NCBI GenBank assembly: GCA_947585965.1
Contig: CANPXK010000012.1
Location: 1-47,286 of the forward strand
Reading direction: 5' to 3'
Origin: an uncultured Clostridia bacterium
GTDB taxonomy: Bacteria; Bacillota; Clostridia; Oscillospirales; Acutalibacteraceae
Length of the DNA stretch: 47,286 nucleotides
Shown: positions 23,381 to 38,752 of the stretch, piece after piece
Position numbering within the stretch: the stretch's first letter is position 1
Layout: every line of letters starts with the position of its first letter
Position numbers and translations under genes: made by a program
The notes under the pieces: generated by a model
Seen by the model: only the letters and a program-made list of their open reading frames with translations
What the model was told of the DNA's origin: nothing
The model's database searches: none

Positions 23381-24624
23381 AGTTCAGGACTTTTTCCGAA
23401 AAACAGCTTAAACTTCTGAGGTGGTGGTGTGACGGAAGTGAAAGTTCCGACTGCGACGGTATTATATGCGATGGTGCCGTCAGGAGCGGTAAGACCTTAT
23501 GTATGAGTGTATCATTTATTTCGTGGGCAATGCTTAATTTTGAAGGCGGCAGTTTTGCAATATGCGGAAAGACTATACGTTCGGTTAAGAGAAATCTGGT
23601 CGTTCCTCTGCTTAATGTATTGGCGGATCTGGGGTTTGAGGTCAGGGACAGGCTTTCGTCAAATATACTGGAGGTGCAGACAGGAAGCAGGAAAAACATA
23701 TTCTATCTCTTCGGAGGAAGAGATGAGGGCTCGGCGGCACTTATACAGGGAATAACACTTTGCGGAGTACTTTTTGACGAGGCTGCTCTTATGCCGAGGT
23801 CGTTTGTTGAACAGGCTGTGGCGAGATGCTCGGTTGAGGAATCAAAGCTGTGGTTTAACTGTAATCCTGAATATCCTCAGCATTGGTTCTGTACCGAATG
23901 GGTAAAAAAGGTCAGGGAGAAAAATCTTTTTTATATCCATTTTACTATGGAGGATAATCCTTCCTTGTCCGAGGCTATGCTCAGACGCTATCAGAAGCTT
24001 TATTCGGGCAGCTTTTATCAGAGGTATGTCCTCGGAAAATGGACGGCTTCGGAGGGACTTGTATATCCGTTTATGTCGGACGAAAAAATGCTGTATGATG
24101 AGCCGAAGGGCGGATTTGACGATTTTGTTATTTCCTGCGACTATGGTACTGTCAACCCGTCTTCGTTCGGTCTGTGGGGACTCAGCGGGGGTATCTGGTA
24201 CAGGATAAACGAATATTATTACAGCTCACGCAGGGAGGGCTCTTCACGCACTGATGAGGAGCATTATAAAGGCTTATGTGAACTTGCCGGGGAGAGGAAG
24301 ATATCGGAAGTGATTGTTGATCCGTCCGCGGCAAGCTTTATCGAAGTTATAAAAAGACATGGCAGATTCAGAGTGACGGCGGCAAAGAATAATGTAACCG
24401 ATGGTATAAGGCAGGTTAGCAGTGCACTTAAACAGGGGGATATAAGAATATGCCGCTGCTGTATTGATTGTATAAAAGAGTTCGGTATGTATCGTTGGGA
24501 AAGCGGGGGAAGAGATATTCCGATGAAAGAAAATGATCATGCTATGGATGATGTGAGGTATTTTGTTGCTACATATCTGAACAGATATGATGACAGCATA
24601 TATGCACTGGCTTCAATCAGATAA
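23377..24624 (+). CDS. Phage terminase large subunit
   Basis: 415 aa, TTG start inside TTGA overlapping the small subunit stop. The packaging ATPase has Walker A GAVRSGKT (33-40) and Walker B VLFDEA (131-136). The C-terminal RNase H-like nuclease has its first Asp at 255 (ISCDYGTVNP) and a second acidic motif VDPSAASF. PBSX/Terminase_3-6 type. All key residues are present, so it should be able to cut and pump DNA into a capsid. Confidence 0.92.
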   Translation: MKFRTFSEKQLKLLRWWCDGSESSDCDGIICDGAVRSGKTLCMSVSFISWAMLNFEGGSFAICGKTIRSVKRNLVVPLLNVLADLGFEVRDRLSSNILEVQTGSRKNIFYLFGGRDEGSAALIQGITLCGVLFDEAALMPRSFVEQAVARCSVEESKLWFNCNPEYPQHWFCTEWVKKVREKNLFYIHFTMEDNPSLSEAMLRRYQKLYSGSFYQRYVLGKWTASEGLVYPFMSDEKMLYDEPKGGFDDFVISCDYGTVNPSSFGLWGLSGGIWYRINEYYYSSRREGSSRTDEEHYKGLCELAGERKISEVIVDPSAASFIEVIKRHGRFRVTAAKNNVTDGIRQVSSALKQGDIRICRCCIDCIKEFGMYRWESGGRDIPMKENDHAMDDVRYFVATYLNRYDDSIYALASIR

Positions 24625-24684
24625 TACCGACATAGCGGAGTCATATATACATAACCGTTTCATGCGGAAAAGAGGTGATAAGAA

Positions 24685-25833
24685 TTGGGTTGGTTCAGAA
24701 ATAAAAACAGAAATAAGACGAGCGGATTTGCCGTTCAGACGGCAGGGAGCGAGGGATATAATCACCCGTTTTCCTGTATCAGAAATTACAGCCCGCTTGG
24801 CTGCTTTGAAAAAAATCTGTATCGCTCGCTAAGGGAATCCATTCCCGTAATTGATGCGGCGATATACAAGATCATAAGACTGACAGGCAATTTTAAGGTT
24901 CAATGCTCCGATAAAAAAGCCGAAAGAAAATTAGAAGAATTTCTGAGAAATGTCAGGGTCAACGGAATATCCTATGGTGTTGACAGTTTTATATCACAGT
25001 ACCTTGAGCAAATGCTTACATACGGTACCGCCGTAGGCGAGATAGTACTCGGTGTGGACGGTAATATTGCGGCACTTTATAACAGCTCACTCGATAATGT
25101 AGAGCTTTGCTGCGGTGAGAATCCTTTTGATGTATGTATTAATGTCGTAGATGAAACAGGAGTGAAAAAGCCCGTAAGATACCCCGAGCTTATATTGTGC
25201 AGTGCAATTATGCCGGAGCCGGGGAAGCTGTACGGCACCTCCGTATTGAAGGGTCTCCCGTTTGTGAGCGATATATTCCTTAAAATTATCAATGCTATCG
25301 GGACAAACTGGGACAGAGTGGGAAATGTCCGATTTGCCGTCACATATAAGCCGACTGACGGCGACAGAGGAAGTACAAAGGAAAAGGCTATGCTTATAGC
25401 CTCGGAATGGAGCAAGGCTATGAAAAGCAGAGAGCCGAGGGATTTCGTGTCCGTGGGGGATGTCAGCATAAAGGTAATAGGTGCGGATAATCAGATACCC
25501 GACAGCGAGGTTCCTGTGCGGCAGATACTTGAACAAATCGTTGCCAAGCTGTCAATACCTCCGTTCCTTTTGGGACTTACATGGTCAACAACCGAAAGGA
25601 TGTCTTCACAACAGGCGGATATCCTCACAAGTGAGCTTGAATATTACAGGCGTGTGCTTAATGAAAGCATAAGAAAAATATGCCGTACATTTCTGCGGCT
25701 TAACGGTTTTAATGAACAGTGCGAACTTGTATGGGATAATATCAATCTTCAGGACGAGGTTGAGCTTGCAAAGTCAAGATTATATAACGCTCAGGCGGAG
25801 GAAATAGAAAATCGTATTAAAAAGGGAGAATGA
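24685..25833 (+). CDS. Phage portal protein
   Basis: 382 aa, TTG start 24685 with AGAGGTGA upstream. Ring-forming portal signature features are DAAIYKIIRLTGNFKV, SQYLEQMLTYGTAVGEIVL (stem region) and LSIPPFLLGLTWSTTERMSS near the C-terminus, as in SPP1/HK97-type portals. It would dock terminase and form the exit channel of a capsid. Somewhat short for a portal (usually 400-550 aa). Overlaps the next gene by 4 bases. Confidence 0.85.
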   Translation: MGWFRNKNRNKTSGFAVQTAGSEGYNHPFSCIRNYSPLGCFEKNLYRSLRESIPVIDAAIYKIIRLTGNFKVQCSDKKAERKLEEFLRNVRVNGISYGVDSFISQYLEQMLTYGTAVGEIVLGVDGNIAALYNSSLDNVELCCGENPFDVCINVVDETGVKKPVRYPELILCSAIMPEPGKLYGTSVLKGLPFVSDIFLKIINAIGTNWDRVGNVRFAVTYKPTDGDRGSTKEKAMLIASEWSKAMKSREPRDFVSVGDVSIKVIGADNQIPDSEVPVRQILEQIVAKLSIPPFLLGLTWSTTERMSSQQADILTSELEYYRRVLNESIRKICRTFLRLNGFNEQCELVWDNINLQDEVELAKSRLYNAQAEEIENRIKKGE

Positions 25834-26777
25834 ATGTGGAAAATGAAAACAGCAATCTGAAAGCAGGTGAACTGGAGCTTATCAACAGCTATACACGCAG
25901 ACCTCTTAAGGCTGATGAGGTATATGCCTTTTCCGTTGTTTTGTGTGATAACGAAATTGACAGGGATTTTGAAAAATTTTCTGATTCCGCACTAAAAAAA
26001 ATGGAAAAACTGTTTGTAGGGGTAACCGGAGTTCTTGACCATGACCCGAAGAGTAAAAACCAGACAGCAAGGATTTTTTCGTGCAGAGCGGAGGAAGTAT
26101 CGGGAAAAAAGACATTGGACGGGCATCAGTATATACGTCTTGCCGCAAGGGCATATATGCCGAGGACAGAGGGCAATAAGGATTTTATTATGCAGCTTGA
26201 CAGCGGCATAAAAAAGGAGGTAAGTGTCGGCTGCTCGATAGCTAAGAGGATATGCTCAATCTGCGGCTGCGAAAACGGCTCATGCGGACATATCAGGGGA
26301 AGAAGCTATGACGGTGAGGTGTGCCATAAAATACTCGAAGAACCGACGGATGCTTATGAATGGTCATTTGTTGCAGTCCCTGCACAAAAAGCGGCAGGCG
26401 TTATCAAATCATATAAAAAAGGAGAGAACGGTTTGGATATTGAAAAAAGACTTTTCAGCGGTGAGGCTGAAAGCTTCAGTGTTGACGAAATGAATATTAT
26501 AGCGGAAAAATTCCGCATATTGCAGGAAAAGGCTGCCGATGGTGAGGTATACAGAAGACGGCTTGAGGCTGATATAAATAAGCTTGCCGCCTTTACCCTT
26601 CCGCAGCTTAAAAGAGATGTGCTCGACTTCATTACAAGTAAAATGAATGCGGTGCAGCTTGAAAATCTCAAGAAGGCCCTTTCGGAGGGAAGGGAAAATA
26701 ATATGCCGCTTAAGCCCCAGCTTAGTGCGGCGGTAAAAAACATGAGAACGGATAATAATGCTTTTAAAAATATTTGA
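25830..26777 (+). CDS. Phage prohead maturation protease (XkdF-like)
   Basis: 315 aa. The N-terminal half (about 25-195) contains TGVLDHDPKS with a candidate catalytic His71, KKEVSVGCSIAKR with a Ser, and a Cys/His cluster (Cys142, 145, 147, 152, 165; His154, 166). It ends with DAYEWSFVAVPAQ, the pattern of phage prohead proteases. The C-terminal half (220-300) is helical and may be a fused scaffold. Overlaps the portal stop (ATGA). Confidence 0.78.
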   Translation: MNVENENSNLKAGELELINSYTRRPLKADEVYAFSVVLCDNEIDRDFEKFSDSALKKMEKLFVGVTGVLDHDPKSKNQTARIFSCRAEEVSGKKTLDGHQYIRLAARAYMPRTEGNKDFIMQLDSGIKKEVSVGCSIAKRICSICGCENGSCGHIRGRSYDGEVCHKILEEPTDAYEWSFVAVPAQKAAGVIKSYKKGENGLDIEKRLFSGEAESFSVDEMNIIAEKFRILQEKAADGEVYRRRLEADINKLAAFTLPQLKRDVLDFITSKMNAVQLENLKKALSEGRENNMPLKPQLSAAVKNMRTDNNAFKNI

Positions 26778-26789
26778 GGAGGATAATAT

Positions 26790-27122
26790 ATGAATGTTTC
26801 ATTTAACGGCTTCGGGGAAAATGTGGTTACATTTGAAACGGAGGGAAGCGTGAGTGCCGGTATGCCGGTTATGGTATCGGCAAGCGGAAAGGTTAAGGCG
26901 GCAAGCGGTGTATTCTGCGGAATATGTTTGGGTGTAAGAAACGGTTATGCCGCAGTGCAGCTTAGCGGATATGTTAAAACCGCTTATGATACCGCCCCGG
27001 CTGTCGGGTATACAAAGCTCGTCGGAAAAAACGGAAAAATAAGTACGGATGCATCGGACGGCAGGGAGTACCTTGTTGTTGATATTGATACCGTTGCCAA
27101 AACAGCGGGAATTATACTTTGA
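26790..27122 (+). CDS. Capsid decoration protein (DUF2190-like)
   Basis: 110 aa, beta-rich. Features are SVSAGMPVMVSASGKVKAAS, CGICLGVRNGYAAVQLSGYV, and a C-terminal LVVDIDTVAKTAGIIL. This fits small head-decoration/stabilisation proteins encoded between protease and major capsid genes. Ribosome site GAGGAGG 8 bases upstream. Confidence 0.72.
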   Translation: MNVSFNGFGENVVTFETEGSVSAGMPVMVSASGKVKAASGVFCGICLGVRNGYAAVQLSGYVKTAYDTAPAVGYTKLVGKNGKISTDASDGREYLVVDIDTVAKTAGIIL

Positions 27123-27144
27123 TTTGAAGGGAGATTATTGATAT

Positions 27145-28155
27145 ATGGCATATTATGACACTATAAAGCCGGAAAAGGGTATGTACGGCAACGGTACAAA
27201 ATCCTTTACGCAGATTCTCGAGGAGCTTGACCCGTCGGAAAATTATAAGGGAAGTGAGCTTGAGGGATTGGACGCATATCAGCGTCAGCTTAAAAGATAT
27301 GATATCAGGGTAGGGGGAAGCAATTCGGATTGTGTGCAGAAATTTTTCCAAAGCTCGGACAGTGCGGCACTTTTTCCGGAATATGTATCAAGAGCGGTAA
27401 GGCAGGGTATTGAAAGGGCGGATGTTCTTTCGGATATTATTGCTGCTAAGACCGTGATTGACGGCATGGATTACAGATCCGTTGTTTCCGATCCCTCCGA
27501 TGACGATAAACAGCTTAAGCCTGTTGCGGAGGGAGCATATCTTCCGCAGACGACCATAAAAACAAGCGGTCAGCTTGTTAAGCTGCAAAAAAGAGGAAGA
27601 ATGCTTGTTGCATCTTATGAGGCAATTAAATTCCAGAAACTTGACCTGTTTACCGTAACACTCAGGCAAATAGGGGCACATATTGCCCGTGAACAGCTTA
27701 AGGATGCAGTGGAGGTTCTTATAAACGGCGATTCGACAACATCTGCTGCCGGTACTGTTTCCGCCGCGTCTGTCGGAAATATTTCCTATGATGATCTTGT
27801 AAAGCTATGGGCGGAACTTTCGCCTTATGAAATGAATACGCTTCTTGCACCGACAGCGGTTATGACAAAGCTTCTTTCAATGAGTGAAATGAAGGATTCC
27901 CGTGCGGGACTTGATTTCCACGGCAGCGGAAAAATGATTACACCGCTCGGGGCGAAGCTTTTACATATTCCATCAATTACGGGAAATAAGATTATAGGTC
28001 TTGATAAAAACTGTGCGCTTGAAATGGTACAGTCCGGAGATGTTGTGACCGATTATGATAAGCTCATAGACAGGCAGCTTGAAAGAGCGGCAATAAGCTG
28101 TATTACGGGCTTTGCAAAAATATTCCCTGATTCGGTTAAGGTGCTTACCTGTTGA
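27145..28155 (+). CDS. Phage major capsid protein (HK97-fold)
   Basis: 336 aa. An N-terminal delta-like region of about 75 residues precedes the capsid core: ADVLSDIIAAKTVIDGMDYR, VAEGAYLPQTTIKTSGQLVK, RGRMLVASYEAIKFQKLDLF, then AHIAREQLKDAVEVLINGD. This is the order expected for HK97-fold shells from this kind of Firmicutes prophage. AGGGAGA upstream of the ATG. Position directly after the decoration gene supports the call. Confidence 0.85.
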   Translation: MAYYDTIKPEKGMYGNGTKSFTQILEELDPSENYKGSELEGLDAYQRQLKRYDIRVGGSNSDCVQKFFQSSDSAALFPEYVSRAVRQGIERADVLSDIIAAKTVIDGMDYRSVVSDPSDDDKQLKPVAEGAYLPQTTIKTSGQLVKLQKRGRMLVASYEAIKFQKLDLFTVTLRQIGAHIAREQLKDAVEVLINGDSTTSAAGTVSAASVGNISYDDLVKLWAELSPYEMNTLLAPTAVMTKLLSMSEMKDSRAGLDFHGSGKMITPLGAKLLHIPSITGNKIIGLDKNCALEMVQSGDVVTDYDKLIDRQLERAAISCITGFAKIFPDSVKVLTC

Positions 28156-28170
28156 TTGGGGGAATGACGG

Positions 28171-28536
28171 TTGAATATGGAGGAAATAATGAGAATATTC
28201 TGCCGTCTGTCCGGTCTGGATTATGAGGAAGCGGCTGATTTTCGTTTTATGTGTGATACTGCACTGAGCTACATAATGTCGCGCATAAAACACGGCTCGG
28301 ATATAAGATGCTACGGCGGCAGGATCAATTTTGCCGCCGCCGCTCTTGCATATTACAGATACGTTTTATGGAGTCTGACCGATGGAGTTATAAATGAGAT
28401 AAATGTCGGGGAAATAAGAGTAAAGCACGGCGGATTCAGTGAGCTTGATGCGGCGGACAGACTTTGCAGAGAAGCTTTGGCGGATATAGGGGAAATTCTT
28501 GAAAGTGAGGATTTTGTATTTAATTCATTTTCGTAA
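28171..28536 (+). CDS. Head-tail connector/adaptor-like protein
   Basis: 121 aa if started at TTG 28171 (GGGGG at 28158-28162). ATG 28189, with GGAGG only 5 bases upstream, is an equally good start and would give 115 aa (MRIFCRLSGL). Helical, with a conserved-looking core YIMSRIKHGSDIRCYGGRI and AAAALAYYRYVLWSL. Size and position after the capsid gene fit a gp6/YqbG-like portal adaptor. Function assigned mainly by position. Confidence 0.55.
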   Translation: MNMEEIMRIFCRLSGLDYEEAADFRFMCDTALSYIMSRIKHGSDIRCYGGRINFAAAALAYYRYVLWSLTDGVINEINVGEIRVKHGGFSELDAADRLCREALADIGEILESEDFVFNSFS

Positions 28537-28551
28537 TATATAGGTGGTTAT

Positions 28552-28878
28552 ATGAAAAAGCTTATAGATAAGGCTATTGAGAGGTTGGGAAAGGTTTGCT
28601 ATATAAAAAGTAAAAAAGGCTGTGCCGTTATTTTTCCCGAGAGGTATTCTCAGAGGATAAACGGAGGGGTAAGTATTTCTCCTCACGGCAGAGGGGATCC
28701 CGAAAAATATTTTATATACTGCAATTTTGAGATAGGGAATGGTGTACAGTACGGCGATATTGTCAGTGATACGGAAAATGCATACTATATATTGTGGAGC
28801 GATGAGGTAAAAAGCAAATACGGAGATTATGTGAAGATCTGTGCAAGGAAAATAAAAAGGGGTGATAAGTATATATGA
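28552..28878 (+). CDS. Small phage head-completion-type protein
   Basis: 108 aa, ATG start with AGGTGG upstream. Beta-rich (GCAVIFPERYSQRINGGVSI, ENAYYILWSDEVKSKYGDYV). Similar-sized stopper or neck proteins follow the adaptor in many siphophage and myophage operons. No family is recognised with confidence. Overlaps the next gene by 4 bases (ATGA). Confidence 0.5.
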   Translation: MKKLIDKAIERLGKVCYIKSKKGCAVIFPERYSQRINGGVSISPHGRGDPEKYFIYCNFEIGNGVQYGDIVSDTENAYYILWSDEVKSKYGDYVKICARKIKRGDKYI

Positions 28879-29273
28879 CATTTGCTGAAGAAATGTATTT
28901 TAAGGCTTTGGATGATCCTGCATTTTCGGATATGAAGCCGGTGCTTGAAAAGTGTGCGGGGGAACTTCCGTTTCCTCTGGAAAAGCCATATGTAAGTTTC
29001 GGAACGGAATACGAAAACGGAAGCTGTCTTTTGGGGAGCGGTATGGTTGTCAGTGAGATTATGACGGTAAATGTTGCGGTGGATGAGGAAATTAACGAGG
29101 GATATTGCAGGGAATGTGCAAAAGCAGTGACGCTTGCCGTTATGAGTCTTGATACGGGGAAAAGAATAATCTCCGTATCGGCAGGCGGGTGTGAGTATAA
29201 TGATGCAGTCGGATGCTACAGCATAAAGCTTAAATTCGGACTTCGTGAGGTACTTCGGGACGGAGGTGACTGA
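28875..29273 (+). CDS. Small phage tail-terminator-like protein
   Basis: 132 aa. Contains KPYVSFGTEYENGSCLLGSG, VVSEIMTVNVAVDEEIN and CYSIKLKFGLREVL, consistent with the alpha-beta fold of tail-terminator/neck proteins (YqbJ-like). Assignment is by size and place between head genes and the tube-like gene. Confidence 0.5.
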   Translation: MTFAEEMYFKALDDPAFSDMKPVLEKCAGELPFPLEKPYVSFGTEYENGSCLLGSGMVVSEIMTVNVAVDEEINEGYCRECAKAVTLAVMSLDTGKRIISVSAGGCEYNDAVGCYSIKLKFGLREVLRDGGD

Positions 29274-29659
29274 TCATATATTCTGAAGAGGAGAGCCTAT
29301 GCGGCAGAGATGTAAATATATATATTGACGGGAAAAAGCTGCTTCAGGCAGAAAGTATGGAAATACGCAAAAAATCGGAAATACACAATATCCGTTCATG
29401 CTTTTTTGGAGATGATATCGCACACATAAGAAGGCGCTGCAGCTATAAGGCAACTATGACGGGACTTGAATTCAAAAAGCCGTTTGAGTGCTGTTGTTTT
29501 GCCGATCTTGATAATTTTACCATGACGGTTGAAATTGACAGGAAAAGATATACCCTTAAAAACTGTATTTGGGATGATTTTTATGCGGCGGCAGACAGGG
29601 AGAAATTCAGGGAACATATAAGTGTTATTGCTATGGATATGGAATCGGAGGATATATGA
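29270..29659 (+). CDS. Tail-tube-like protein (XkdM-like), non-canonical start
   Basis: About 129 aa. The coding pattern begins right after the GGAGGTGA at 29262-29269 with CTG ATC ATA TAT (29270 on). The first in-frame ATG is 29357 and lacks a good ribosome site. The N-terminal part (LCGRDVNIYIDGKKLLQAES, MEIRKKSEI) looks like the opening of Xkd-type tube proteins, which start with a short 'G..(G)xxLDGe.m' strand. Start at CTG, ATC or ATA is therefore likely. Length is close to the usual 140-145 aa of XkdM. Overlaps the next gene by 4 bases. Confidence 0.5.
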   Translation: MIIYSEEESLCGRDVNIYIDGKKLLQAESMEIRKKSEIHNIRSCFFGDDIAHIRRRCSYKATMTGLEFKKPFECCCFADLDNFTMTVEIDRKRYTLKNCIWDDFYAAADREKFREHISVIAMDMESEDI

Positions 29660-29811
29660 AGGAAATAAATCTTGAACTTACAGAGGATATGGCTGACGAG
29701 CTTGGAAGGGATAAGACGGCACAGCTGAGGGATATATCGGAAATGATAAGGTGCGATATGCTCAGGTACAATAAAATTCTTGATGTTGAGGAGGAGATTG
29801 ATGAGGACTGA
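29656..29811 (+). CDS. 51-aa tail chaperone-like protein
   Basis: ATG 29656 overlaps the tube-like gene stop (ATGA) and the frame stops at TGA 29809-29811. Acidic, helical: MKEINLELTEDMADELGRDK, RDISEMIRCDMLRYNKIL, DVEEEIDED. Tail-assembly chaperones (XkdN-like) stand in this place, just before the tape measure gene in normal phages. Here the tape measure is absent. It overlaps the next gene by 11 bases. Too short for the gene finder, but translational coupling on both sides supports it. Confidence 0.6.
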   Translation: MKEINLELTEDMADELGRDKTAQLRDISEMIRCDMLRYNKILDVEEEIDED

Positions 29812-30322
29812 CGGAAAAATGAGTTATAAGGATTATGTCTTCCCTGTTAATCCTTCGGTTATAAAAATAAGTCATGGCAGAAAAATTGCAAAAACCAATA
29901 TTCCTGACGGATATGATACGGTCAGTGATATGGGATCTTCATATCGGATAATAAGCGGAGAAGGAGAGTTTTTCGGCGAGAAATGTGTTGATGATTTTCT
30001 TGCCCTTAAAGCTGTTATGGATAAGGGCGGCGGGGGAATGCTTTATCTTCCCTCGCAAAAGCCTGTTTATGCAATGTTTGAGGAGCTGGAGCTTATTGCT
30101 GAGGACTGTGAGGGGGTTATACGGTATAAATTTAAATTTATTGAAAGTTTTGAAAAGCATTTTTCGGAGAGATATTTGTATTGCTATGGAAACGGGTGTG
30201 ATTGTTTATGGGATATTTCCTATAAATACGGGATACATATTGATATTCTGACGGAGTTTAATCCCCATATAAAAAGACCTGATATACCTGTACTTCCTTG
30301 GGAGAAGGTGAAGCTTTGCTGA
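29801..30322 (+). CDS. LysM-domain baseplate/tail spacer protein (XkdP-like)
   Basis: 173 aa from ATG 29801, chosen for the GAGGAGGAG just upstream; further in-frame starts exist upstream to 29780. N-terminal domain begins YKDYVFPVNPSVIKISHGRK, characteristic of gp53/XkdP-type hub proteins. A C-terminal LysM-like module (CLWDISYKYGIHIDILTEFN, PVLPWEKVKL) follows. In Bacillus PBSX the equivalent protein connects tape measure, tube and baseplate hub. Confidence 0.78.
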   Translation: MRTDGKMSYKDYVFPVNPSVIKISHGRKIAKTNIPDGYDTVSDMGSSYRIISGEGEFFGEKCVDDFLALKAVMDKGGGGMLYLPSQKPVYAMFEELELIAEDCEGVIRYKFKFIESFEKHFSERYLYCYGNGCDCLWDISYKYGIHIDILTEFNPHIKRPDIPVLPWEKVKLC

Positions 30323-31233
30323 AATACATATTAAAAGATATAAATGATGTTGAAACTGCATTTGAACATCCTCTCAGTATGAGTATTGTTTCATCGGAGG
30401 ATGCACCTGCCGACAGTTTCAGAGCTGTTTTTGCTGTGAGCGGAAAAATTCCGGAATTATATTCCGTCAGGGTGCTTGACGGAGGAGAAGTTGTTTTTTT
30501 CGGATTTGTTGACGAGCAGACGGAAACGGTGGCGGACAAGGGAATTTTGCTGGAAATAAGTGCGAGAGGTCCCGAGTCTGTATTGCTTGACAATGAAGCA
30601 ATGCCTCAGACCTATTGTATGCCGACGATGAAAATATTATTTGAAAGACATTTTGAACCGCTGGGTTTTAAGGGGGTCGTAGGAGGAGAAAGAGCCTTTC
30701 CGGGGGATCTTGTTATTTCAAAGGGAATGAGCGAATGGCAGGTGCTCAGCAATTACTGCGAAAAATTTTGTAAGTCCAGACCGGTTGTAAGAAGCGATCT
30801 TGTTATAGAAACGGGGGAAAACTCGCAGCCGGATACGATATATCTCGGAGAAAACAGCTCCATAATAAAAATCAGCAGGACGATAAGCAGAAATGCACCC
30901 GTATCTGACATATATGTAAGGACTTATTTTGCCGGGGGATATGAAATGTATGTCGGAAACGAAACGGCAAAAAAACACAGGATACAAAGAAAGAGGTATT
31001 TTAACTGTGCGGACAGCAAATACAGATCGGTGCTTTATGCGGATAATATAATAAAGAATTCCAACGGTAAATATGAAAGATATACCATAGACCTGAGCGG
31101 TATACTTGGCTGCAAGGTCGGAGATACCCTGATGGTGCGGAACAGGAGGGGAAAAATGAAGATTGACGAGCTTCACTATATACTTGACGGCAGTGGGGAG
31201 CATACGAGAATTTATGCGGAGGTGATTGTGTAA
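30316..31233 (+). CDS. Baseplate hub protein (XkdQ/gpD-like)
   Basis: 305 aa from TTG 30316 (AGGTG 5 bases upstream, overlapping the LysM gene stop); an in-frame TTG at 30298 lies inside the ribosome-site region. Motifs include DSFRAVFAVSGKIPELYSV, EISARGPESVLLDNEA, a central beta domain and IDLSGILGCKVGDTLMV. This pattern belongs to late-control gpD/XkdQ hub proteins that form the trimer at the bottom of contractile tails. Confidence 0.78.
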   Translation: MLKYILKDINDVETAFEHPLSMSIVSSEDAPADSFRAVFAVSGKIPELYSVRVLDGGEVVFFGFVDEQTETVADKGILLEISARGPESVLLDNEAMPQTYCMPTMKILFERHFEPLGFKGVVGGERAFPGDLVISKGMSEWQVLSNYCEKFCKSRPVVRSDLVIETGENSQPDTIYLGENSSIIKISRTISRNAPVSDIYVRTYFAGGYEMYVGNETAKKHRIQRKRYFNCADSKYRSVLYADNIIKNSNGKYERYTIDLSGILGCKVGDTLMVRNRRGKMKIDELHYILDGSGEHTRIYAEVIV

Positions 31234-31589
31234 TGTGGATATCAAAAAATATTATTTCCCGCGGCAATGGCGGCACTGCTTCCAGCGGTGCTGTGGGTCA
31301 CAGTGCAAATATGAGGGTTTCTGCCACATCCGCGAGAGGGATAGAAAAATGTTCAATGATGACGCCCCCGGGGATTTACAGTCTTCCTACTAACAATCAG
31401 ACATCGGTTGTGCTGCAGACACAGAACGGTCCCGTTTGTCTCGGTATGAGAATGAACAGATATTACGGGATAATTGAACCCGGGGAGATTATTATGGAAT
31501 CTGAAGGGGGAGCTCAGATAAAGCTTTCAAATGACGGTATGGTCTATATAAACGGAAGGGGGTTTGCTTCGGATGGATACGGCGATTAA
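31233..31589 (+). CDS. Baseplate spike protein, Mu gp45/gpV-like
   Basis: 118 aa; ATG overlaps the hub stop (TAATG). The sequence has the gp45/gpV order: PPGIYSLPTNNQTSVVLQ, GPVCLGMRMNRYYGIIEPGE, IIMESEGGAQIKLSNDGMVY, ING. This is an OB-like domain followed by the start of a beta-helical spike. The protein is short (gp45 is about 200 aa), so the spike is minimal and lacks an added apex domain. Confidence 0.7.
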   Translation: MWISKNIISRGNGGTASSGAVGHSANMRVSATSARGIEKCSMMTPPGIYSLPTNNQTSVVLQTQNGPVCLGMRMNRYYGIIEPGEIIMESEGGAQIKLSNDGMVYINGRGFASDGYGD

Positions 31590-31908
31590 TCCGGGAGGTG
31601 ATTTTGATACCGATATAATTGGCAGACCTTATACGATTGACGGAACTGATGTGCTTCTGCAAAAAATATATATATGCCTGTCGGGACACAGGGGAGGTTT
31701 TATTTATGATCGTGAACTTGGCGGGGAACTGTATAAAATCGTACTTTCAGATGATAATGCGGAGGAACTTCTGGAGATTCGGGCAAGGGAGGCGGTCAAG
31801 GATATCAGGGAGGCGGAAGTATGCGGTGTACGGATAAGGGACGGGGCTGCATATGTTTTTGTCAATATAGACGACAGGATATATAATATTGCTTTGAGGG
31901 GGATTTAA
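31573..31908 (+). CDS. Baseplate wedge protein gp25-like (XkdS)
   Basis: 111 aa from ATG 31573 (AGGGGG 10 bases upstream; TTG 31564 is too close to it). Contains RELGGELYKIVLSDDNAEEL and REAVKDIREAEVCGVRIRDG, the gp25/XkdS fold with its (E)xR motif. gp25 nucleates the sheath in contractile tails, so its presence without a sheath gene is notable. Overlaps the spike gene by 17 bases. Confidence 0.75.
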   Translation: MDTAINPGGDFDTDIIGRPYTIDGTDVLLQKIYICLSGHRGGFIYDRELGGELYKIVLSDDNAEELLEIRAREAVKDIREAEVCGVRIRDGAAYVFVNIDDRIYNIALRGI

Positions 31909-31909
31909 G

Positions 31910-32965
31910 ATGGCATACAGCTATGATGAAATACTTGAGAGAATGGAGAATAAATATTTTGAACTGACGGGGCATGAGGCGGAGGAATGTGGGGATATCG
32001 GAATAAGGTTAAAGTTGCTTGCGGGTGAGCTTTATTCCTTGGGAAGTAATTTCGATTGGCTGAAAAGACAGCTTCTGTTCACCACGGCAACAGGTGAGCA
32101 GCTTGATATGTATGCAATGCAGAGGGGAATAAAAAGAATAAGGGGAAATAAATCAAGCGGAGAATTGTTTATTGTACTTGATACTGCATTGGATTATGAA
32201 ATGGAGATTCCCGAGGGGACTGTATGTACGACTGCGGACGGAGGACTGAATTTTATTATAGATAAGGCGACGAAGGTGACGAAGGGAAGTGTAAGAACCA
32301 TATGTCATGCCTGTGCGGAGCATACGGGTAAAAAATATAATGTCGCAAAAAATACCATTACAACCATGGTTACATATTTTTCCGCAGGAATGTATATAGA
32401 GAACGGAACTGCCTTTACAGGCGGTACTGATGATGAAACCGATGAGGAACTGAGAAAAAGGATCGAAGCGACCTACAGAAATATATCCAATGGTGCAAAT
32501 GCGGCATATTATCGCAGACTTGCGGAAAGTGTGGACGGGGTTCAATCGTCAGCCGTTGTGGAGAGCAGTACGGGAGAAGAAGGTGCAACTATTTATGTTG
32601 CGGGCAGAGGTGCGGTGTGCAGCGGGAGTTGTATTTCAAAAGTTTATAAAATTATAGAAGAGGGGAGATGTATCGGTCATAAAATCAGAGTAGTTAATGC
32701 CGGCACAGCATTATATAATGTTGATGTCGGAATATCGGTGAAATCAGGTTATGACAGTCAGGAGGTTATGGAAAACGTCAGAAACAGCATAATAAATTAT
32801 TTTAACGCACTGAATGTCGGACAGGGGGTGATTCTTGCAGAGATAGGCTGTGCCCTTATGAATACCGATGGGGTAGAAAATTATGTATTCAATAATATGC
32901 AGGATAAAAGTGCGGCTGAGTCTGTACTTATAATTATTGGAAATCTTACGGTAAACACTATGTGA
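31910..32965 (+). CDS. Baseplate J-family protein (XkdT)
   Basis: 351 aa. Typical Baseplate_J features: YDEILERMENKYFELTG, GEQLDMYAMQRGIKRIRGNK, TAFTGGTDDETDEELRKRIE, NISNGANAAYYRRLAESVDG and a C-terminal DGVENYVFN. Forms the wedges of contractile baseplates together with gp25 and gpI. One base separates it from the gp25-like gene, and the frame is intact. Confidence 0.9.
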   Translation: MAYSYDEILERMENKYFELTGHEAEECGDIGIRLKLLAGELYSLGSNFDWLKRQLLFTTATGEQLDMYAMQRGIKRIRGNKSSGELFIVLDTALDYEMEIPEGTVCTTADGGLNFIIDKATKVTKGSVRTICHACAEHTGKKYNVAKNTITTMVTYFSAGMYIENGTAFTGGTDDETDEELRKRIEATYRNISNGANAAYYRRLAESVDGVQSSAVVESSTGEEGATIYVAGRGAVCSGSCISKVYKIIEEGRCIGHKIRVVNAGTALYNVDVGISVKSGYDSQEVMENVRNSIINYFNALNVGQGVILAEIGCALMNTDGVENYVFNNMQDKSAAESVLIIIGNLTVNTM

Positions 32966-32975
32966 GGTGAGATAT

Positions 32976-33446
32976 TTGGGTGAATTTGAAATGATGTCAA
33001 AACGGCTTGCACAGACAGGTCTTTATGATATATCCGAGGGAAGCGGGGTATATGCTGAGCTGATGTCCTATGCTGTAGGATTGGATCTTTTTTTCGATGA
33101 ACTGGAGAAAATCAGGAGGGATATTTTTTTTGATATATCGGAGGGCAGTGAGGTCGGAATATATGAGAGGCTTATGTCTGTGTGTAATCTTGATAAATCT
33201 GCAGAGGGAAGAAAAAGGAGCATAATGAGTATGCTTTCGGTGACTGACAGAGATTTTACGCTTGAGGGGATTAAGAAGCTTTTGGGTATTTATAATATTG
33301 ACGGTGATGTTTCCGAGAACGGCAGATATATTAATATTAATTGTCGGAGCAGACTGAGCGAGAGTGAGGAAAAGGCAATAAACGATGATATACAGCGATT
33401 TGCACCTCTTCATACCAAAATATATGTATACGGTGCGGGTCAGTAG
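32976..33446 (+). CDS. Baseplate protein gpI/XkdU-like (YmfQ family)
   Basis: 156 aa from TTG 32976, preceded by GAGGTGA at 5-base spacing; GTG 32967 lies within that site. Features GVYAELMSYAVGLDLFFDEL, ERLMSVCNLDKSAEGRKRSI and LEGIKKLLGIYNIDGDV match the YmfQ/XkdU (DUF2313) wedge-tip family. It is the last gene of the operon. No tail fibre, holin or endolysin follows; the next gene is on the other strand. Confidence 0.75.
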   Translation: MGEFEMMSKRLAQTGLYDISEGSGVYAELMSYAVGLDLFFDELEKIRRDIFFDISEGSEVGIYERLMSVCNLDKSAEGRKRSIMSMLSVTDRDFTLEGIKKLLGIYNIDGDVSENGRYININCRSRLSESEEKAINDDIQRFAPLHTKIYVYGAGQ

Positions 33447-33494
33447 GGTAAATTAAAGATTGTATCTTACATATACGAAAATAAATACAAAAAG

Positions 33495-33521
33495 AGGCTG
33501 TCCGTTTTTGGCGGACAGCCT
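33495..33521. terminator. Bidirectional terminator between the phage-derived operon and the surface-protein gene
   Basis: 10-bp perfect stem AGGCTGTCCG/CGGACAGCCT with a 7-base loop. On the minus strand CTTTTTGT follows; on the plus strand TAAAATTTTTG follows. It lies about 50 bases after the last baseplate gene and about 30 after the convergent gene's stop. Confidence 0.85.
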
Positions 33522-33554
33522 TAAAATTTTTGTTGTTTTACTGTTATCTAGGAA

Positions 33555-34355
33555 TTAGTCCTTAGAGGAAGCCTTCTTTGTCATAACAACAGCAGTGCCG
33601 AGAGAAGCAAGAACAACAGCTACAAGAGCTATAGCAGATGTTGTATCACCTGTTGCAGGTGTTGTTGTATCCGGATCAGTGGTTGTGTCAGCAGGAGTTT
33701 CAGCAGGTGTTGATTCTGCGGGAGTTTCAGCAGGTGTCGATTCTGCGGGAGTTTCAGCAGGTGTCGACTCTGCGGGAGTTGACTCTGCGGGAGCCTCATC
33801 GGTTACCTTTTCAAACTGATCATAACCTGCGTAGAGGAATTCCCACTCCACTTCGCTGGGATCGAGCTCAGCGTTCGGATCTGCTACAGCATCAGGGTTC
33901 ATCTGGTTTGTGTCAAGGAATACTCTGAACTTTATGTGGTCGCCTGCCTGTACATCCTCTTTGATTGCAAGGTTGCACTGGCTGTCAAGTACACGAACGT
34001 GCTCAGGCTCGTAGGTTGCCCAGTTTACATCCCAGCTATTGTCAAGACGAACCTTGAACTGGAAGTGCTGCTCACCTGTGGGCTTATCATCTTTGTTCCA
34101 GTCAGTTATCCAGTCAGCCTCAACGGAGGGAATATCAATCATAGCTTCCCAAATGCCATCTCCGTCATCATCACTCATGGGGATATCCTTACCTGCTTCC
34201 CAGTTCGTAAAGGTGCCGGAAACACCAACAGTATGACCTTCACTTGTGATCTTGTCACTTCCGGCCGATGCCGATACGCTTATTGCCGTAACAGCTGTCA
34301 AAGAAGCAACGAGTGCCGAACAAATAGCTACTTTAAGTATTTTTGAATTTCTCAT
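33555..34355 (-). CDS. Secreted X25-like (starch-binding type) surface protein with C-terminal anchor
   Basis: 266 aa. A signal peptide (about 1-31) is followed by one X25-like beta-sandwich module (about 38-178; GVSGTFTNWEAG, SDDDGDGIWEA, FQFKVRLDNSWDVNWATYEP). A linker (187-232) repeats PAEST/PAET. The C-terminal sorting-like tail has TTPATGDT (231-238), a membrane helix (241-258) and KKASSKD. It shares the module type and the tail plan with the 607-aa protein at 36228. Likely binds alpha-glucan at the cell surface; no catalytic domain. AGGAGG stands 9 bases before the ATG. Confidence 0.78.
   Translation of the reverse strand: MRNSKILKVAICSALVASLTAVTAISVSASAGSDKITSEGHTVGVSGTFTNWEAGKDIPMSDDDGDGIWEAMIDIPSVEADWITDWNKDDKPTGEQHFQFKVRLDNSWDVNWATYEPEHVRVLDSQCNLAIKEDVQAGDHIKFRVFLDTNQMNPDAVADPNAELDPSEVEWEFLYAGYDQFEKVTDEAPAESTPAESTPAETPAESTPAETPAESTPAETPADTTTDPDTTTPATGDTTSAIALVAVVLASLGTAVVMTKKASSKD
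33690..33800 (-). repeat. Tandem repeats encoding the PAEST/PAET linker
   Basis: Near-identical 15-27-base units (GAGTC..CCCGCAGAAT type on the minus strand) encode alternating PAEST and PAET motifs. Such repeats vary in number by slippage. Confidence 0.75.
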
Positions 34356-34408
34356 TGTTAAAATCCTCCTAAAAAATATTTCGGATACACGTCGGTACCT
34401 TTATGACG

Positions 34409-34437
34409 ATTGTATCATGTTTACAGCCAAAAATCAA
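34409..34437 (-). promoter_or_regulatory. Promoter of the 266-aa surface-protein gene
   Basis: On the minus strand TTGATT (34432-34437) and TACAAT (34409-34414) are separated by 17 bases, 54 bases before the ATG. Confidence 0.6.
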
Positions 34438-34941
34438 GATATAATTAAAAAAATAATTATGTAAAATTTTGCATATGACATACTTCGGTGTGATTTTATG
34501 GAATAAATGAATATAAATATCACTTATATCGAGATAAATTTTTTAGAAAATAATTTGTTTTTGTTAATTACTTACATAAAAATCCGGCAAAGTATGTATG
34601 AAATAACCGTTAATTATTATTATATAGTAAAATATGAGGTATAATTATACAAATATCATATGAGTTACAGGTGATATTATGTGCAAAATGTATATAATAT
34701 CGCTATAAACAGCTATATTTCAATAAACCGTACTTTGAAAGCCGATTTTGATAAGAGAAATGATTTTCCGATACGGGAAAAATACGGAATGACAAACACT
34801 ACATTATTGAGCATACGGATCATACGGTTTAAATAAACCGTTTTCAGGATGAATTGTGAATATAGTATGGAAATCAGGGAATGATATTATTGCCGGTTTT
34901 AATGAAACGTATCGGTAATATAATGTTTGGAGGAACAGACT
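34438..34941. other. AT-rich gene-free stretch
   Basis: No supported gene. TATAAT at 34640-34645 could be a -10 box for the DUF1540 gene, but no good -35 is visible. A stretch at 34800-34840 repeats the words 'ataaaccg' and 'tacgg' in inverted orientation, without a clear stem. Confidence 0.3.
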
Positions 34942-35106
34942 ATGAAGGATCCTAACAGAAGCATAGAGTGTACCGTTGATCAGTGTCAGTATCACTGCAC
35001 GGACTGCGATTATTGTTCGCTGAATACGGTAAGAATAGGCACGCACGAAAGCAACCCCACAGAGGAACAATGTGTTGACTGTATGTCATTCAGAGTAAAG
35101 GACTGA
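34942..35106 (+). CDS. DUF1540-domain cysteine-rich small protein
   Basis: 54 aa; GGAGG stands 8 bases before ATG 34942. MKDPNRSIECTVDQCQYHCT, DCDYCSLNTVRIGTH and CVDCMSF place seven Cys with the DUF1540 spacing (C-x4-C-x3-C-x2-C-x2-C), probably binding zinc. The family is common in spore-forming Firmicutes; function unknown. A hairpin terminator follows about 60 bases downstream. Confidence 0.85.
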   Translation: MKDPNRSIECTVDQCQYHCTDCDYCSLNTVRIGTHESNPTEEQCVDCMSFRVKD

Positions 35107-35165
35107 TGCGGCAGCGGGGATGACGGAATTTTCTGTCGTTCTCAGGTGCTGCGGTCAAATATATT

Positions 35166-35213
35166 GCCCGAACGTTACATGATTTATGAATTATGCAGCG
35201 GTCGGGCTGTTTT
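35166..35213 (+). terminator. Terminator after the DUF1540 gene
   Basis: GCCCGA (35166-35171) pairs with TCGGGC (35202-35207) around a 30-base loop, followed by TGTTTTTT. Confidence 0.6.
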
Positions 35214-35263
35214 TTATGAAATCACGGCAGGAAACGCTCTGTATGCGGATAACCGTGCACATA

Positions 35264-35785
35264 TCAGGAAAAGAAATTTTTGATGACTGCAATTATGAAA
35301 TCGGCAAGATAAACCGTAGCCGCAAGTATAAGCAGGAACCCGATAAAGGAAAGTATACGCACTAAGCGTGCTTTCCCCGGAGAAAGCTCCTCCTCCGCTT
35401 GTGCGGCTTCCTTTTCGTATTCGTTCAGTTTTTCTTTTTCGCCCTCATTAATTTCGGGTATTTTATCTTCTCCGATCGCACCTATTCCGACCAATATATC
35501 AACGGCATCGGAATAGGCACTCACGGGAACGAATACCTCGCAGTTTTCCGGCGGTGCGGAATTAAGTATTCTTATTCCTGTTTCCCTTTTTTCATTCTGA
35601 TAAGAATAGGGTATTCCCGCACTGTCAAGGGCGGCTCTTATTCTTTCAAGCTCAAAACCGTTTGCGGTTACAATATAAACGGGTGAAAAATGATTTGGAT
35701 TTTCTATTAATTTTCTGCCGCATGAAGGACATCTTGCATCCGCATAATCAAAATAAAGCTTTTTACATTTGGAACAATATTTCAT
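35264..35785 (-). CDS. Zinc-ribbon membrane protein with DUF2007-like domain
   Basis: 173 aa. An N-terminal zinc ribbon (CSKCKKLYFDYADARCPSCG, Cys4, Cys7, Cys19, Cys22) is followed by a DUF2007-like alpha-beta domain (about 33-100: YIVTANGFELERIRAALDSA, CEVFVPVSAYSDAVDIL). An acidic helical spacer follows, with a C-terminal membrane helix (about 143-168). Probably tail-anchored with the domains in the cytosol. Role unknown. Confidence 0.75.
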   Translation of the reverse strand: MKYCSKCKKLYFDYADARCPSCGRKLIENPNHFSPVYIVTANGFELERIRAALDSAGIPYSYQNEKRETGIRILNSAPPENCEVFVPVSAYSDAVDILVGIGAIGEDKIPEINEGEKEKLNEYEKEAAQAEEELSPGKARLVRILSFIGFLLILAATVYLADFIIAVIKNFFS

Positions 35786-36227
35786 CTTTGTTTCTCCGTT
35801 CGGGATCTGAATTTCTTTTTGGATTTATTATATAACAATTTGTATAAAAGTCAATGTTTTTACGGAACGGATTTCAACAGCGACACGAAAAAATGTTGAA
35901 AACAAGCCGTTCCCGACGAAAAAATTAAAACTTTGTAACGAAATAGTTACATATTAGAAAGAAAATATTACCAAAAATTAACCTTTGTTTATATTTAATA
36001 TGCATAATAAAAATTCTATTTAACATTTATTTCTGCAAAAAGCATTAAAAACAATTGGCAAAATGCACAAAAAATTACATTTCCGGAAACTAAATACTAA
36101 AAATAACCTTACTTTTAGCTTGCAATTTTAATTTTTACGTTGTATAATCAAGATAAAGTAAAATTGGTGGGGTGTTCTGCCCTGTTAGGTTTTACGAAAA
36201 AAATTTATTTTTAGGAGGACAAAAAAG
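35786..36227. other. Long AT-rich leader before the 607-aa surface-protein gene
   Basis: No gene seen. Contains the promoter at 36120-36148 and, from it, a leader of about 75 bases that ends in TTTTAGGAGGACAAAAAAG before the ATG. The same AGGAGG context precedes the 266-aa surface-protein gene, suggesting similar expression. Confidence 0.5.
36120..36148 (+). promoter_or_regulatory. Promoter of the 607-aa surface-protein gene
   Basis: TTGCAA (36120-36125) and TATAAT (36143-36148) are exactly 17 bases apart. Confidence 0.75.
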
Positions 36228-38051
36228 ATGCAAACAAAGAAGATTATCAGTATTGCTTTGACAGCTGCTCTTGTTAGCTCGGTTGCTGCTGTTGCTACAC
36301 TGTCAGCATCTGCTGTTGACGTTCTGCCGGATGGATTTTCAAAGGCAGATCTCGATGGTCACACAATGGGTATCATCGGTATCAACGGATGGGAAGTAGA
36401 TGCAGCTGCTATGACAGATGCTGATGGAGACGGCATTTACTTAGGTGTAGTTGAGGATGTTGCAGCCGGAAGTTATGAGTTCAAGATTCGTCTTGACGGT
36501 GCTTGGGATTACAGCTGGGGTGTATACGAGGAAGCAGAGGATCGTACATTCAACAGCCAGACAAACTGCTCACTTACCTTGGGCAGCACTTCAGACGTAG
36601 TTGTAGTTCTTGATACAAACGGTGCGGATGCTAATGTTTGGTCAGTGGCTTATTTTGCACTTCCCGATGAGGGCGGCGACCAGAGCGGAGCTTTTGTAGC
36701 AGCAGATCATGCCTACAGTGCAATAGGTGACTTCAGCTCATGGGACGACGGCGATGTTGCCATGACAGAGATTGCAAAAGGAGTATATTGTGCTAACATA
36801 GGTGATGTAGCTGCAACTCAGGGCTTTAAGGTTCGTGCAGACGGTGCATGGGACTATAGCTGGGGCGTATACGAGGCAGCAGAGGATCGTACACAGAACA
36901 GCCAGACCAACTGCTCAATAGCAGAGGATGCTAAGAACGTACATCTTATACTTAACACAAACGGCGCTGACTTCCAGGTATGGCAGGTAGCTTATTTCTA
37001 TACTGCTCCGGACGGATCACTCAAGTTTGTAGATGTAGGTCCTAACGCTGCTACACCTGATGAACCGTCAACAGACGAGTCTTCAACAGATGAACCGTCA
37101 ACGGATGAGCCTTCAACAGACGAGTCTTCGACAGATGAGCCTTCAACAGACGAGCCTTCGACAGACGAGTCTACAGAGCCTTCAACGGAAGATCCGGACG
37201 AGCCGTCTATCGAGGAGAACTATACGACACAGATTTCAGATTATATTTTCTTTGATAACAGCGAAACAAAGTGGGAAACAGTACACGCTCATTGGTGGAA
37301 TTCTGACTATACAAAGATAGTTGACCTTGAGGGCAACCTTTGGCCGGCAGAGCCGCTTGATGAAAACGGTAATCAGGATTTCGCCAATGCTTGGCCGGGA
37401 ACTGAAATGACTAATATTGAGGGTACCGATATCTGGCAGGCAAGAGTTCCGTTCGGTGCTACAAAGATTATTTTCAACAATGGTAAGCTTGATGCTGAAA
37501 TAAACAATGAAGTTATTCCTGACGAGCAGGTTGAGGTATTGGCAAACGGTGACGTGACCATGGACAACCTGAATGCAGCAGGTGTTGGTGTTCAGACAGC
37601 AGATCTTGACTTCGATTCAACAGCTAATGCAGGTCAGATATACAAGCTCGATACTTCTGTACTTCCCACAGCTGCACGTGGTATTTATAAGAACAGAAAG
37701 TGGACATTCTCAGCAGAAGCAGGTACATGGGATGCTTACGTGGGTGAGTACATTTCCGAGTTACTTAACGAAGCTCCTGTAGTAAGTGAAGATCCTTCCG
37801 TAGATCCCGAGCCCAGTGACGACAGTGAAGAGCCCGGAGAACCCAGCGGTACAGATGTACCGGGCAATGGCACAAGCACACCTGGTGGCACAAATACACC
37901 CGGTGACGGTGGCAACAATAATGGTGGTTCAAGCACAGGTGACGGAGTAGTTTCAACAGGCGATACAGCAGTACCCGCAGTATTTGCAGTTATTGCTATT
38001 GCAGCTCTCGGTGTAGCTATTGTAGCAGCTAAGAAAAAAGAAAGAGCTTAA
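36228..38051 (+). CDS. Multimodular secreted starch-binding surface protein (two X25-like modules and a CBM26-like module)
   Basis: 607 aa; AGGAGG 8-9 bases before the ATG. Signal peptide about 1-29. Two similar X25-like modules (about 40-145 and 158-257) share FK(I/V)R(L)DGAWDYSWGVYE, and a TDE(P/S)S linker spans 278-325. A CBM26-like region (about 335-510) has YIFFDNSETKW and HAHWWN. A Pro/Gly/Ser spacer leads to VVSTGDT (574-580), a membrane helix (about 582-601) and KKKERA. There is no enzyme domain. It probably tethers starch granules or amylose to the cell, like Ruminococcus starch adherence proteins. The module names are inferred from motif resemblance. Confidence 0.78.
   Translation: MQTKKIISIALTAALVSSVAAVATLSASAVDVLPDGFSKADLDGHTMGIIGINGWEVDAAAMTDADGDGIYLGVVEDVAAGSYEFKIRLDGAWDYSWGVYEEAEDRTFNSQTNCSLTLGSTSDVVVVLDTNGADANVWSVAYFALPDEGGDQSGAFVAADHAYSAIGDFSSWDDGDVAMTEIAKGVYCANIGDVAATQGFKVRADGAWDYSWGVYEAAEDRTQNSQTNCSIAEDAKNVHLILNTNGADFQVWQVAYFYTAPDGSLKFVDVGPNAATPDEPSTDESSTDEPSTDEPSTDESSTDEPSTDEPSTDESTEPSTEDPDEPSIEENYTTQISDYIFFDNSETKWETVHAHWWNSDYTKIVDLEGNLWPAEPLDENGNQDFANAWPGTEMTNIEGTDIWQARVPFGATKIIFNNGKLDAEINNEVIPDEQVEVLANGDVTMDNLNAAGVGVQTADLDFDSTANAGQIYKLDTSVLPTAARGIYKNRKWTFSAEAGTWDAYVGEYISELLNEAPVVSEDPSVDPEPSDDSEEPGEPSGTDVPGNGTSTPGGTNTPGDGGNNNGGSSTGDGVVSTGDTAVPAVFAVIAIAALGVAIVAAKKKERA
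37059..37187 (+). repeat. Tandem repeats encoding the STDEPS/STDESS linker
   Basis: 15-base units such as GATGAGCCTTCAACA occur about eight times with silent and Pro/Ser changes, giving the extended acidic linker. Repeat number is likely variable between strains. Confidence 0.85.
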
Positions 38052-38215: not shown

Positions 38216-38752
38216 ATGAGAGCAACCGGAATTGTACGAAGAATAGATGATTTGGGAAGGGTAGTTATTCCCAAGGAGATACGCCGCACGTTAAGAATAC
38301 GTGAGGGTGATCCGCTTGAAATATACACGGATTCGGGCGGAGAAGTGATTTTTAAAAAATACTCACCAATGGGAGAAATGTCGAGCTTTGCGGAGCAGTA
38401 TGCCGAGGTTATAAACAGAGTATCAAAATGTCCTGTCATAATAACGGACAGGGATCATGTTGTTGCTGCATCGGGTGTATCTAAGAAGGAATATATTGAC
38501 CGCCGGATATCGGCTGATCTTGAAGATATGATAGAAAACCGCAGGAGTTTTACGGCGGAGAGAAATTCCACCGTACTCATGCCTGTTGAGAATATTGACA
38601 AATGTGCGTCCGTTGCATATCCGATTATATCAGCCGGTGACATAACGGGGGCGATAATCATGCTTCTCCCCGAAAGCGGAGCATTTCCCAACGAAGGTGA
38701 TATAAAGTTAATGCAGGCCGCTGCCGACTTCCTCTCCAAACAAAATGAGTAG
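38216..38752 (+). CDS. spoVT: Stage V sporulation protein T, AbrB-family regulator
   Basis: 178 aa, the normal SpoVT length. The N-terminal swapped-hairpin AbrB domain (1-50: MRATGIVRRIDDLGRVVIPK, EIRRTLRIREGD) binds DNA. The C-terminal GAF-like domain (about 55-178) forms the tetramer. In spore formers it tunes late forespore (sigma-G) genes and spore germination. AAGGAG is 9 bases before ATG. Its presence points to an endospore-forming lineage. Confidence 0.93.
   Translation: MRATGIVRRIDDLGRVVIPKEIRRTLRIREGDPLEIYTDSGGEVIFKKYSPMGEMSSFAEQYAEVINRVSKCPVIITDRDHVVAASGVSKKEYIDRRISADLEDMIENRRSFTAERNSTVLMPVENIDKCASVAYPIISAGDITGAIIMLLPESGAFPNEGDIKLMQAAADFLSKQNE

Follow-up and report, generated by a model that had tools for sequence, protein, structure and literature searches.

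Here we analyze a pair of genes for secreted, enzyme-free proteins with starch-type modules and a C-terminal TGDT signal, which lie on a stretch of 47,286 nucleotides (the window) from an uncultured Clostridia bacterium of the Acutalibacteraceae (assembly GCA_947585965.1, 2.87 Mb in 196 contigs; contig CANPXK010000012.1, positions 1 to 47,286, forward strand). The host is a Ruminococcus-like gut bacterium, and its closest named relatives are metagenome-assembled genomes (MAGs) labelled RUG and Lapin, apparently from rumen and rabbit gut. The gene P1 (33555..34355, reverse strand) encodes 266 residues ending in TPATGDTTSAIALVAVVLASLGTAVVMTKKASSKD, and P2 (36228..38051, forward strand) encodes 607 residues ending in VVSTGDTAVPAVFAVIAIAALGVAIVAAKKKERA. 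Both products begin with a typical signal peptide and share a C-terminal layout of TGDT, hydrophobic helix and basic tail. P1 carries one X25-like lobe (33804..34241, reverse strand; about residues 39-184), a PT-rich linker and a TPATGDT anchor, in which TGD, the transmembrane helix and the basic tail span 33558..33653 (reverse strand). P2 carries, all on the forward strand, X25 lobe A (36357..36683), X25 lobe B (36699..37013), a CBM26 region (37224..37757, with bounds taken from the family alignment and the core Pfam match at residues 383-419) and a VVSTGDT anchor, its TGD, helix and tail at 37956..38048. No catalytic domain was found in either protein by Pfam profile search, and neither gave a cohesin or dockerin Pfam match at E <= 1, the mark of an amylosome component. 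The original prediction, made from the letters alone, had described just such an enzyme-free pair with starch-type modules and TGDT tails, and the open reading frames (ORFs) and tails are as it stated; its remark that the tails lack Leu-Pro is correct for P2, which has neither residue, and has to be amended for P1, where T-P-A-T-G keeps the Pro and lacks only the Leu.

The modules of P2 are assigned with scores above the Pfam cut-offs, both for X25_BaPul_like (PF22058, 39.9 bits against 27) and for CBM26 (PF16738, 30.9 bits against 28.1), the latter as had been proposed for the larger protein, and the CBM26 region matches the CBM26 modules of Ruminococcus bromii Amy16. When a profile built from 18 X25 lobes of P2 and its relatives was searched against the PDB, the best match was 7rpy, the X25-2 unit of R. 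bromii Sca5 (E 4.5e-7), followed by the X25 of Bacillus pullulanase (2wan) and then, weakly, by the glycogen-binding domain of AMPK. The residues W620, K654, W661 and N684 of Sca5 contact the ligand (PMC9112005); counted along the alignment, these four fall on W55, K86, W93 and N109 in lobe A and on W172, K201, W208 and N224 in lobe B, and the N687 position is occupied by Thr in the P2 lobes, with an Asn adjacent. P2 has what defines the tandem-X25 clamp, namely two adjacent lobes with equivalents of W620, K654, W661 and N684; P1, with its single lobe, does not. Of the X25-like modules originally seen in both proteins, those of P2 are two X25 lobes, and that of P1 is one divergent lobe, which we call X25-like only, since its score lies under the Pfam cut-off even though 7rpy ranks first in a fold search. 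Four residues of this lobe, W52, K101, W108 and W112, are invariant in 21 orthologs.

Structure prediction, proposed earlier as a check on the modules, gave for P1 an AlphaFold model that is confident over about residues 31-187 and placed 7rpy first in a PDB fold search at modest scores (prob 0.85, E 0.05, low TM-score). The P2 model was poor (mean predicted local distance difference test score, pLDDT, 62); its best Foldseek match was the starch-binding domain of AmyP (prob 1.00, E 0.012), and R. bromii Sas6 appeared at rank 50 (prob 0.75). Single-sequence PDB searches gave P2 a sub-threshold match to Amy16, profiles being needed to go further, and gave P1 matches to parvovirus Rep (E 0.02-0.5), which were rejected as chance; a P1-family profile searched against PDB sequences returned 0 matches.

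Two-lobe X25 units are known to bind maltoheptaose, domain 2 of Sas20 (Sas20d2) with a dissociation constant of 0.61 uM (PMC9112005). The conserved contacts together with the X25 and CBM26 homology therefore make starch binding likely for P2 and plausible for P1. The starch-adhesin role first proposed for the pair is supported insofar as both proteins are enzyme-free and secreted and the P2 lobes match Sca5 X25-2 at most contacts; for P1, with one lobe, it is uncertain.

The pair is a conserved locus of the genus. Homologs of both P1 and P2 were found in all 24 other sampled genus members, and none in 15 genomes of other families of the order, the sole exception being one genome with two weak matches, to the linker and tail of P1. 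On eight public contigs (L197, L198, L199, L200, L202, L203, L206 and L212), P1 and a P2 homolog are arranged divergently with the same zinc-ribbon-like gene between them, as in the window.

The C-terminal signal extends well beyond the pair. A scan covering 2.30 of the 2.87 Mb of the genome (about 80%) gave 52 non-overlapping ORFs whose C-terminus has a helix and a basic tail; TG[D/E] preceded the helix in 11 of them, more often than by chance, as the control motifs GT[DE], T[DE]G, [DE]GT, SG[DE], AG[DE] and NG[DE] occurred 0-1 times each in this set. A comparable [P/V]xTG[D/E] signal is found at the end of about a dozen further proteins of the genome: a leucine-rich repeat (LRR) protein (VPQTGDN), a second LRR protein with an X25-like lobe near its N-terminus (LPQTGET), a pullulanase C-terminus at a contig edge (VPTTGDT), a papain-like protease with a lectin-like domain (PVSTGEN) and a 5'-nucleotidase-like protein (VPGTGEN) are among them, and LPVTGDN, PVPTGDS and TAKTGDT are further tails in the genome; a GH13+CBM26 amylase ends in VNTADN. 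A lack of other proteins with this kind of tail had been named among the things that would refute the original proposal, and such proteins were found; the TGDT tail had also been taken for an unusual trait of the pair, a view that is not supported in this form, as the tail is a general surface signal of this genome, near the (S/P)PXTG-D of Clostridioides difficile SrtB. P1 and P2 each carry a sorting signal in the wider sense (xxxTG, helix and basic tail in a secreted protein). Two cruder searches contributed nothing: an overly specific DNA pattern gave 0 matches for such tails in the same genome, and a very loose scan, which returned mostly chance ORFs, was left unused.

Within the two families, all 21 aligned P1 orthologs and almost every P2 relative keep TGD unchanged. 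Among 58 P1 and P2 family tails, some of which are the same genome under two handles, the position two residues ahead of the Thr holds Pro or Val except for a single Phe, and in P2 relatives Val is about as common as Pro at this canonical Pro position. This switching between Pro and Val among relatives suggests an enzyme that would treat the two alike.

Eleven sortase genes were found in the genome when it was searched, as had been recommended, for a matching enzyme; profiles gave the class of only some of them, and operon context that of the remaining class C enzymes. Class C enzymes stand beside pilin-like genes with LPxTG[GE] or LP-type tails on C13, C24 and C42, the last with one more divergent sortase, and a class D-like pair on C3, scoring under the class D cut-off, adjoins a substrate-like protein with IKTTGFD. 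The class B sortase (G000:C6:32026-34719; TIGR03064, 170.9 bits against a cut-off of 153.75) lies downstream of two housekeeping genes and is the only one that is both apart from any dedicated substrate and genus-wide, being strongly matched in 40 of 41 genus genomes; its loss in the 41st, G018, was rejected because a contig breaks inside the gene. C. difficile SrtB, also of class B, cleaves (S/P)PXTG, its natural substrates continuing TGD, and does not cleave LPETG (PMC4155245). By analogy, the class B enzyme is the most likely candidate for anchoring P1 and P2, with P1 (TPATG) the better fit and P2 (VVSTG) the poorer, given what the SrtB precedent takes and rejects.

A point missing from the earlier note is the strong conservation of the P1 helix and tail. 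Across the 21 orthologs, mean pairwise identity is 95% in the anchor (residues 235-262), 67% in the signal peptide, 51% in the X25-like domain and 37% in the linker; P2-type tails reach only 53%. Identity at fourfold-degenerate sites is roughly equal throughout (anchor 0.62, domain 0.59, the other two regions 0.57 and 0.53), which argues for selection on the protein and rules out a DNA-level cause such as recombination or an overlapping element. Conservation at every position is not what one expects of a generic stop-transfer helix; the pattern may be explained if the helix is recognized by a sortase or some other envelope protein, or if it takes part in helix-helix assembly. Lapin-021 bin18, RUG11102 and Pseudoruminococcus massiliensis have proteins that lack X25 but bear a nearly identical P1-type tail (ASLGTAVVMTKKAS[A/S]KD); their other domain is CBM26-like as read from its sequence, without a profile score. 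In L218:9986-12098 the gene after a P2-like one encodes a CBM26-like protein with a P1-type tail, as though P1 had traded its starch domain and kept the tail. The exact tail is taxonomically narrow, since a tail-only query over 295 genomes of the order matched just two own-genus genomes and, weakly, one of the family. Rather speculatively, the P1-type tail, TGD[TSA]xSA..L.AVV.ASLGTAVVMTKKAS.KD, could be a distinct sorting module whose helix and basic end are recognized by sequence, and which would direct small single-module starch binders (X25-like here, CBM26-like in Pseudoruminococcus and others) to a particular envelope site or partner, via a sortase accepting Pro or Val.

Taken together, we consider it somewhat probable that P1 and P2 capture starch at the cell surface without any catalytic role and are anchored there by the class B sortase. 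Signal peptides would export both proteins; the genus-wide class B enzyme would cut the signal, x-[P/V]-x-T-G-D plus helix and basic tail, between T and G and link them to peptidoglycan. The two X25 lobes of P2 would then act as a clamp on alpha-1,4-glucan like those of R. bromii Sca5 and Sas20, with CBM26 helping, and so keep starch beside surface-anchored amylases and pullulanases. P1 would display its one lobe near the surface, either to assist P2 as a partner or to make a contact that is weaker or depends on avidity.

Several observations weigh against this account of starch capture by sortase-anchored proteins. The matches of the P1 lobe are all sub-threshold (X25 15.4 bits with a cut-off of 27, CBM53 20.4 and CBM48 13.8 bits), the N684 equivalent is Asp (D124) in the P1 of the window, and isolated R. 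bromii X25 lobes did not bind maltooligosaccharides (PMC9112005), so starch binding by a single lobe is uncertain and P1 may not bind alone. On the side of anchoring, the LPXTG model TIGR01167 gave P1 14.1 bits, under its cut-off of 15.9, and did not match P2, and NVQTG, which comes closest as a precedent for Val at the Pro position, was not cut by C. difficile SrtB (PMC4155245), so that the VVSTG of P2 is perhaps a poor substrate. An alternative is that the proteins bind starch and are held in the membrane by the C-terminal helix without sortase cleavage, TGD being a relic or only part of a linker; the missing Leu-Pro of P2 and Leu of P1 would fit, as would the failure of SrtB on a Val-containing motif and the attachment mode of CbpA (NVQTGD), which is still open (PMC4155245). 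We nevertheless regard membrane retention as unlikely, because TGD is kept throughout the P1 orthologs and in nearly all P2 relatives next to a linker of so little identity, the motif and layout are common to other proteins of the genome, and a sortase able in principle to read the motif is maintained across the genus.

Another alternative is anchoring by a different sortase of the genome, the class D-like pair or a class C enzyme. It is favored by the presence of the class D-like genes, with counterparts in several relatives, and by the ability of class C enzymes to accept TG-type signals too; however, the class C enzymes adjoin pilin-like genes with LP-containing tails and the class D-like pair, below its class cut-off, sits beside its own substrate-like protein, which leaves the class B sortase as the only one standing apart and spanning the genus and makes this alternative improbable. 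A third view is that P1 is not mainly a starch binder, the helix and tail being the functional part (for a helix-helix partner, assembly or signalling) and the lobe secondary or degenerate. The gap in identity between anchor and lobe, the single lobe below its Pfam cut-off with Asp for Asn, and the related proteins that keep the tail with a CBM26-like domain in place of the lobe all speak for it. Yet the Trp and Lys residues of the lobe are invariant in the orthologs, and starch contact seems to be the kept trait, because the domain swapped onto a P1-type tail is again a starch-type module; we give this view a slim chance.

The keystone role of Ruminococcus in breaking down starch is believed to depend centrally on its attachment to starch granules, and research has so far concentrated mostly on cohesin-dockerin amylosomes. 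Here, a genus-wide pair would act as anchored, enzyme-free binders without cohesin or dockerin modules. Precedents exist for the parts. P2 resembles Sca5 X25-2 and Sas20 domain 2 (7rpy; PMC9112005) in its tandem X25 lobes, W/K/N contacts and predicted non-catalytic starch binding, and Sca5, like P1 and P2, has a C-terminal sortase signal; unlike Sca5 and Sas20, neither P1 nor P2 matches cohesin or dockerin, P1 has only one lobe and P2 has an extra CBM26. The R. bromii L2-63_00923 product (RBR_02940, also printed RBR_09240; PMC9112005) is likewise a predicted wall-anchored, enzyme-free starch binder, thought to stand outside the amylosome, but carries a Sas20d1-type domain in place of X25 and CBM26. 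The CBM26 of Amy16 (PDB 9qf9) belongs to the same family 26 as that of P2, where the module is not on an amylase. For the anchor, the C. difficile SrtB substrates also have a non-LPXTG motif followed by D, CbpA and P2 both having Val for Pro, and SrtB is a class B enzyme of general anchoring (PMC4155245), as proposed here; in contrast to (S/P)PXTG, position 1 is here mostly T, S, A, P or V, and Val is about as frequent as Pro in P2 relatives. With the LPXTG anchor of TIGR01167 the tails share TG, helix and basic end, whereas Leu-Pro is not kept and the P1 helix is conserved per residue. The new details are the combination of modules and anchor, the Pro/Val rule and the near-frozen P1 anchor. 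From the tails comes a rule that can be tested, namely that a class B sortase reads [P/V]xTGD; it would serve to predict the surface proteins of these bacteria, many of them overlooked by a strict LPXTG search, and the near-invariant P1 helix raises the question of whether the sorting system reads the membrane helix besides the pentapeptide.

Upstream of P1, a promoter-like TTGATT-17-TACAAT (34409..34437, reverse strand) is followed by an AGGAGGA ribosome site, and the regions upstream of P1 in relatives keep TTGATT-TA(C/T)AAT and AGGAGGA. Between P1 and P2 lie a gene for a 54-aa cysteine-rich DUF1540 protein (34942..35106, forward strand), in a stretch conserved in most aligned relatives, and the zinc-ribbon-like gene (35264..35785, reverse strand), which encodes a C-terminal membrane segment and, although retained between P1 and P2 in relatives, may not belong to their system. 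A SpoVT-like regulator (38216-38752) lies directly 3' of P2 and is syntenic in L197 and L198. No Rfam RNA family was found within 33-39 kb of the window. Several MAG contigs (L191, L214-L217) start inside the P1 gene, in four cases near the linker or tail, which suggests assembly breaks at the conserved segment.

Elsewhere in the genome, which is rich in GH13 (20 matches), a 1377-aa secreted protein (G000:C8:7975-12108, in L033) has four X25 lobes, of which the first two share about 72% identity with P2, and repeats that look Ig-like, without a sortase tail; it probably binds starch either after release or while attached in some other way. A scaffold protein is hinted at by two cohesin matches, at G000:C9:20353-20667 within an open frame of 6855 aa and at G000:C25:17099-17413. 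The frame that encodes the class B sortase (L028:12026-14716, equal to G000:C6:32026-34716) is 897 aa long, with about 250 residues ahead of the membrane segment, about 380 beyond the catalytic domain and weak DUF1542/GA-like matches, and similarly long frames (about 680-940 aa) are found genus-wide.

Finally, P1 adjoins tail-to-tail, across a terminator-like stem (33494..33522), a compact phage-derived cluster (22661-33446, forward strand) with small and large terminase, portal, major head protein, small head proteins, baseplate hub and baseplate J genes, in which no tail tube, sheath, tape-measure, integrase or lysis genes were recognized. Its position and gene order are constant in nearly all loci of the genus, with the head protein 75-95% identical, and the large terminase is present in 40 of 41 genus genomes, mostly in single copy; the cluster looks like a domesticated, gene-transfer-agent-like or particle-forming element. 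Two relatives of P1 were found on viral contigs.

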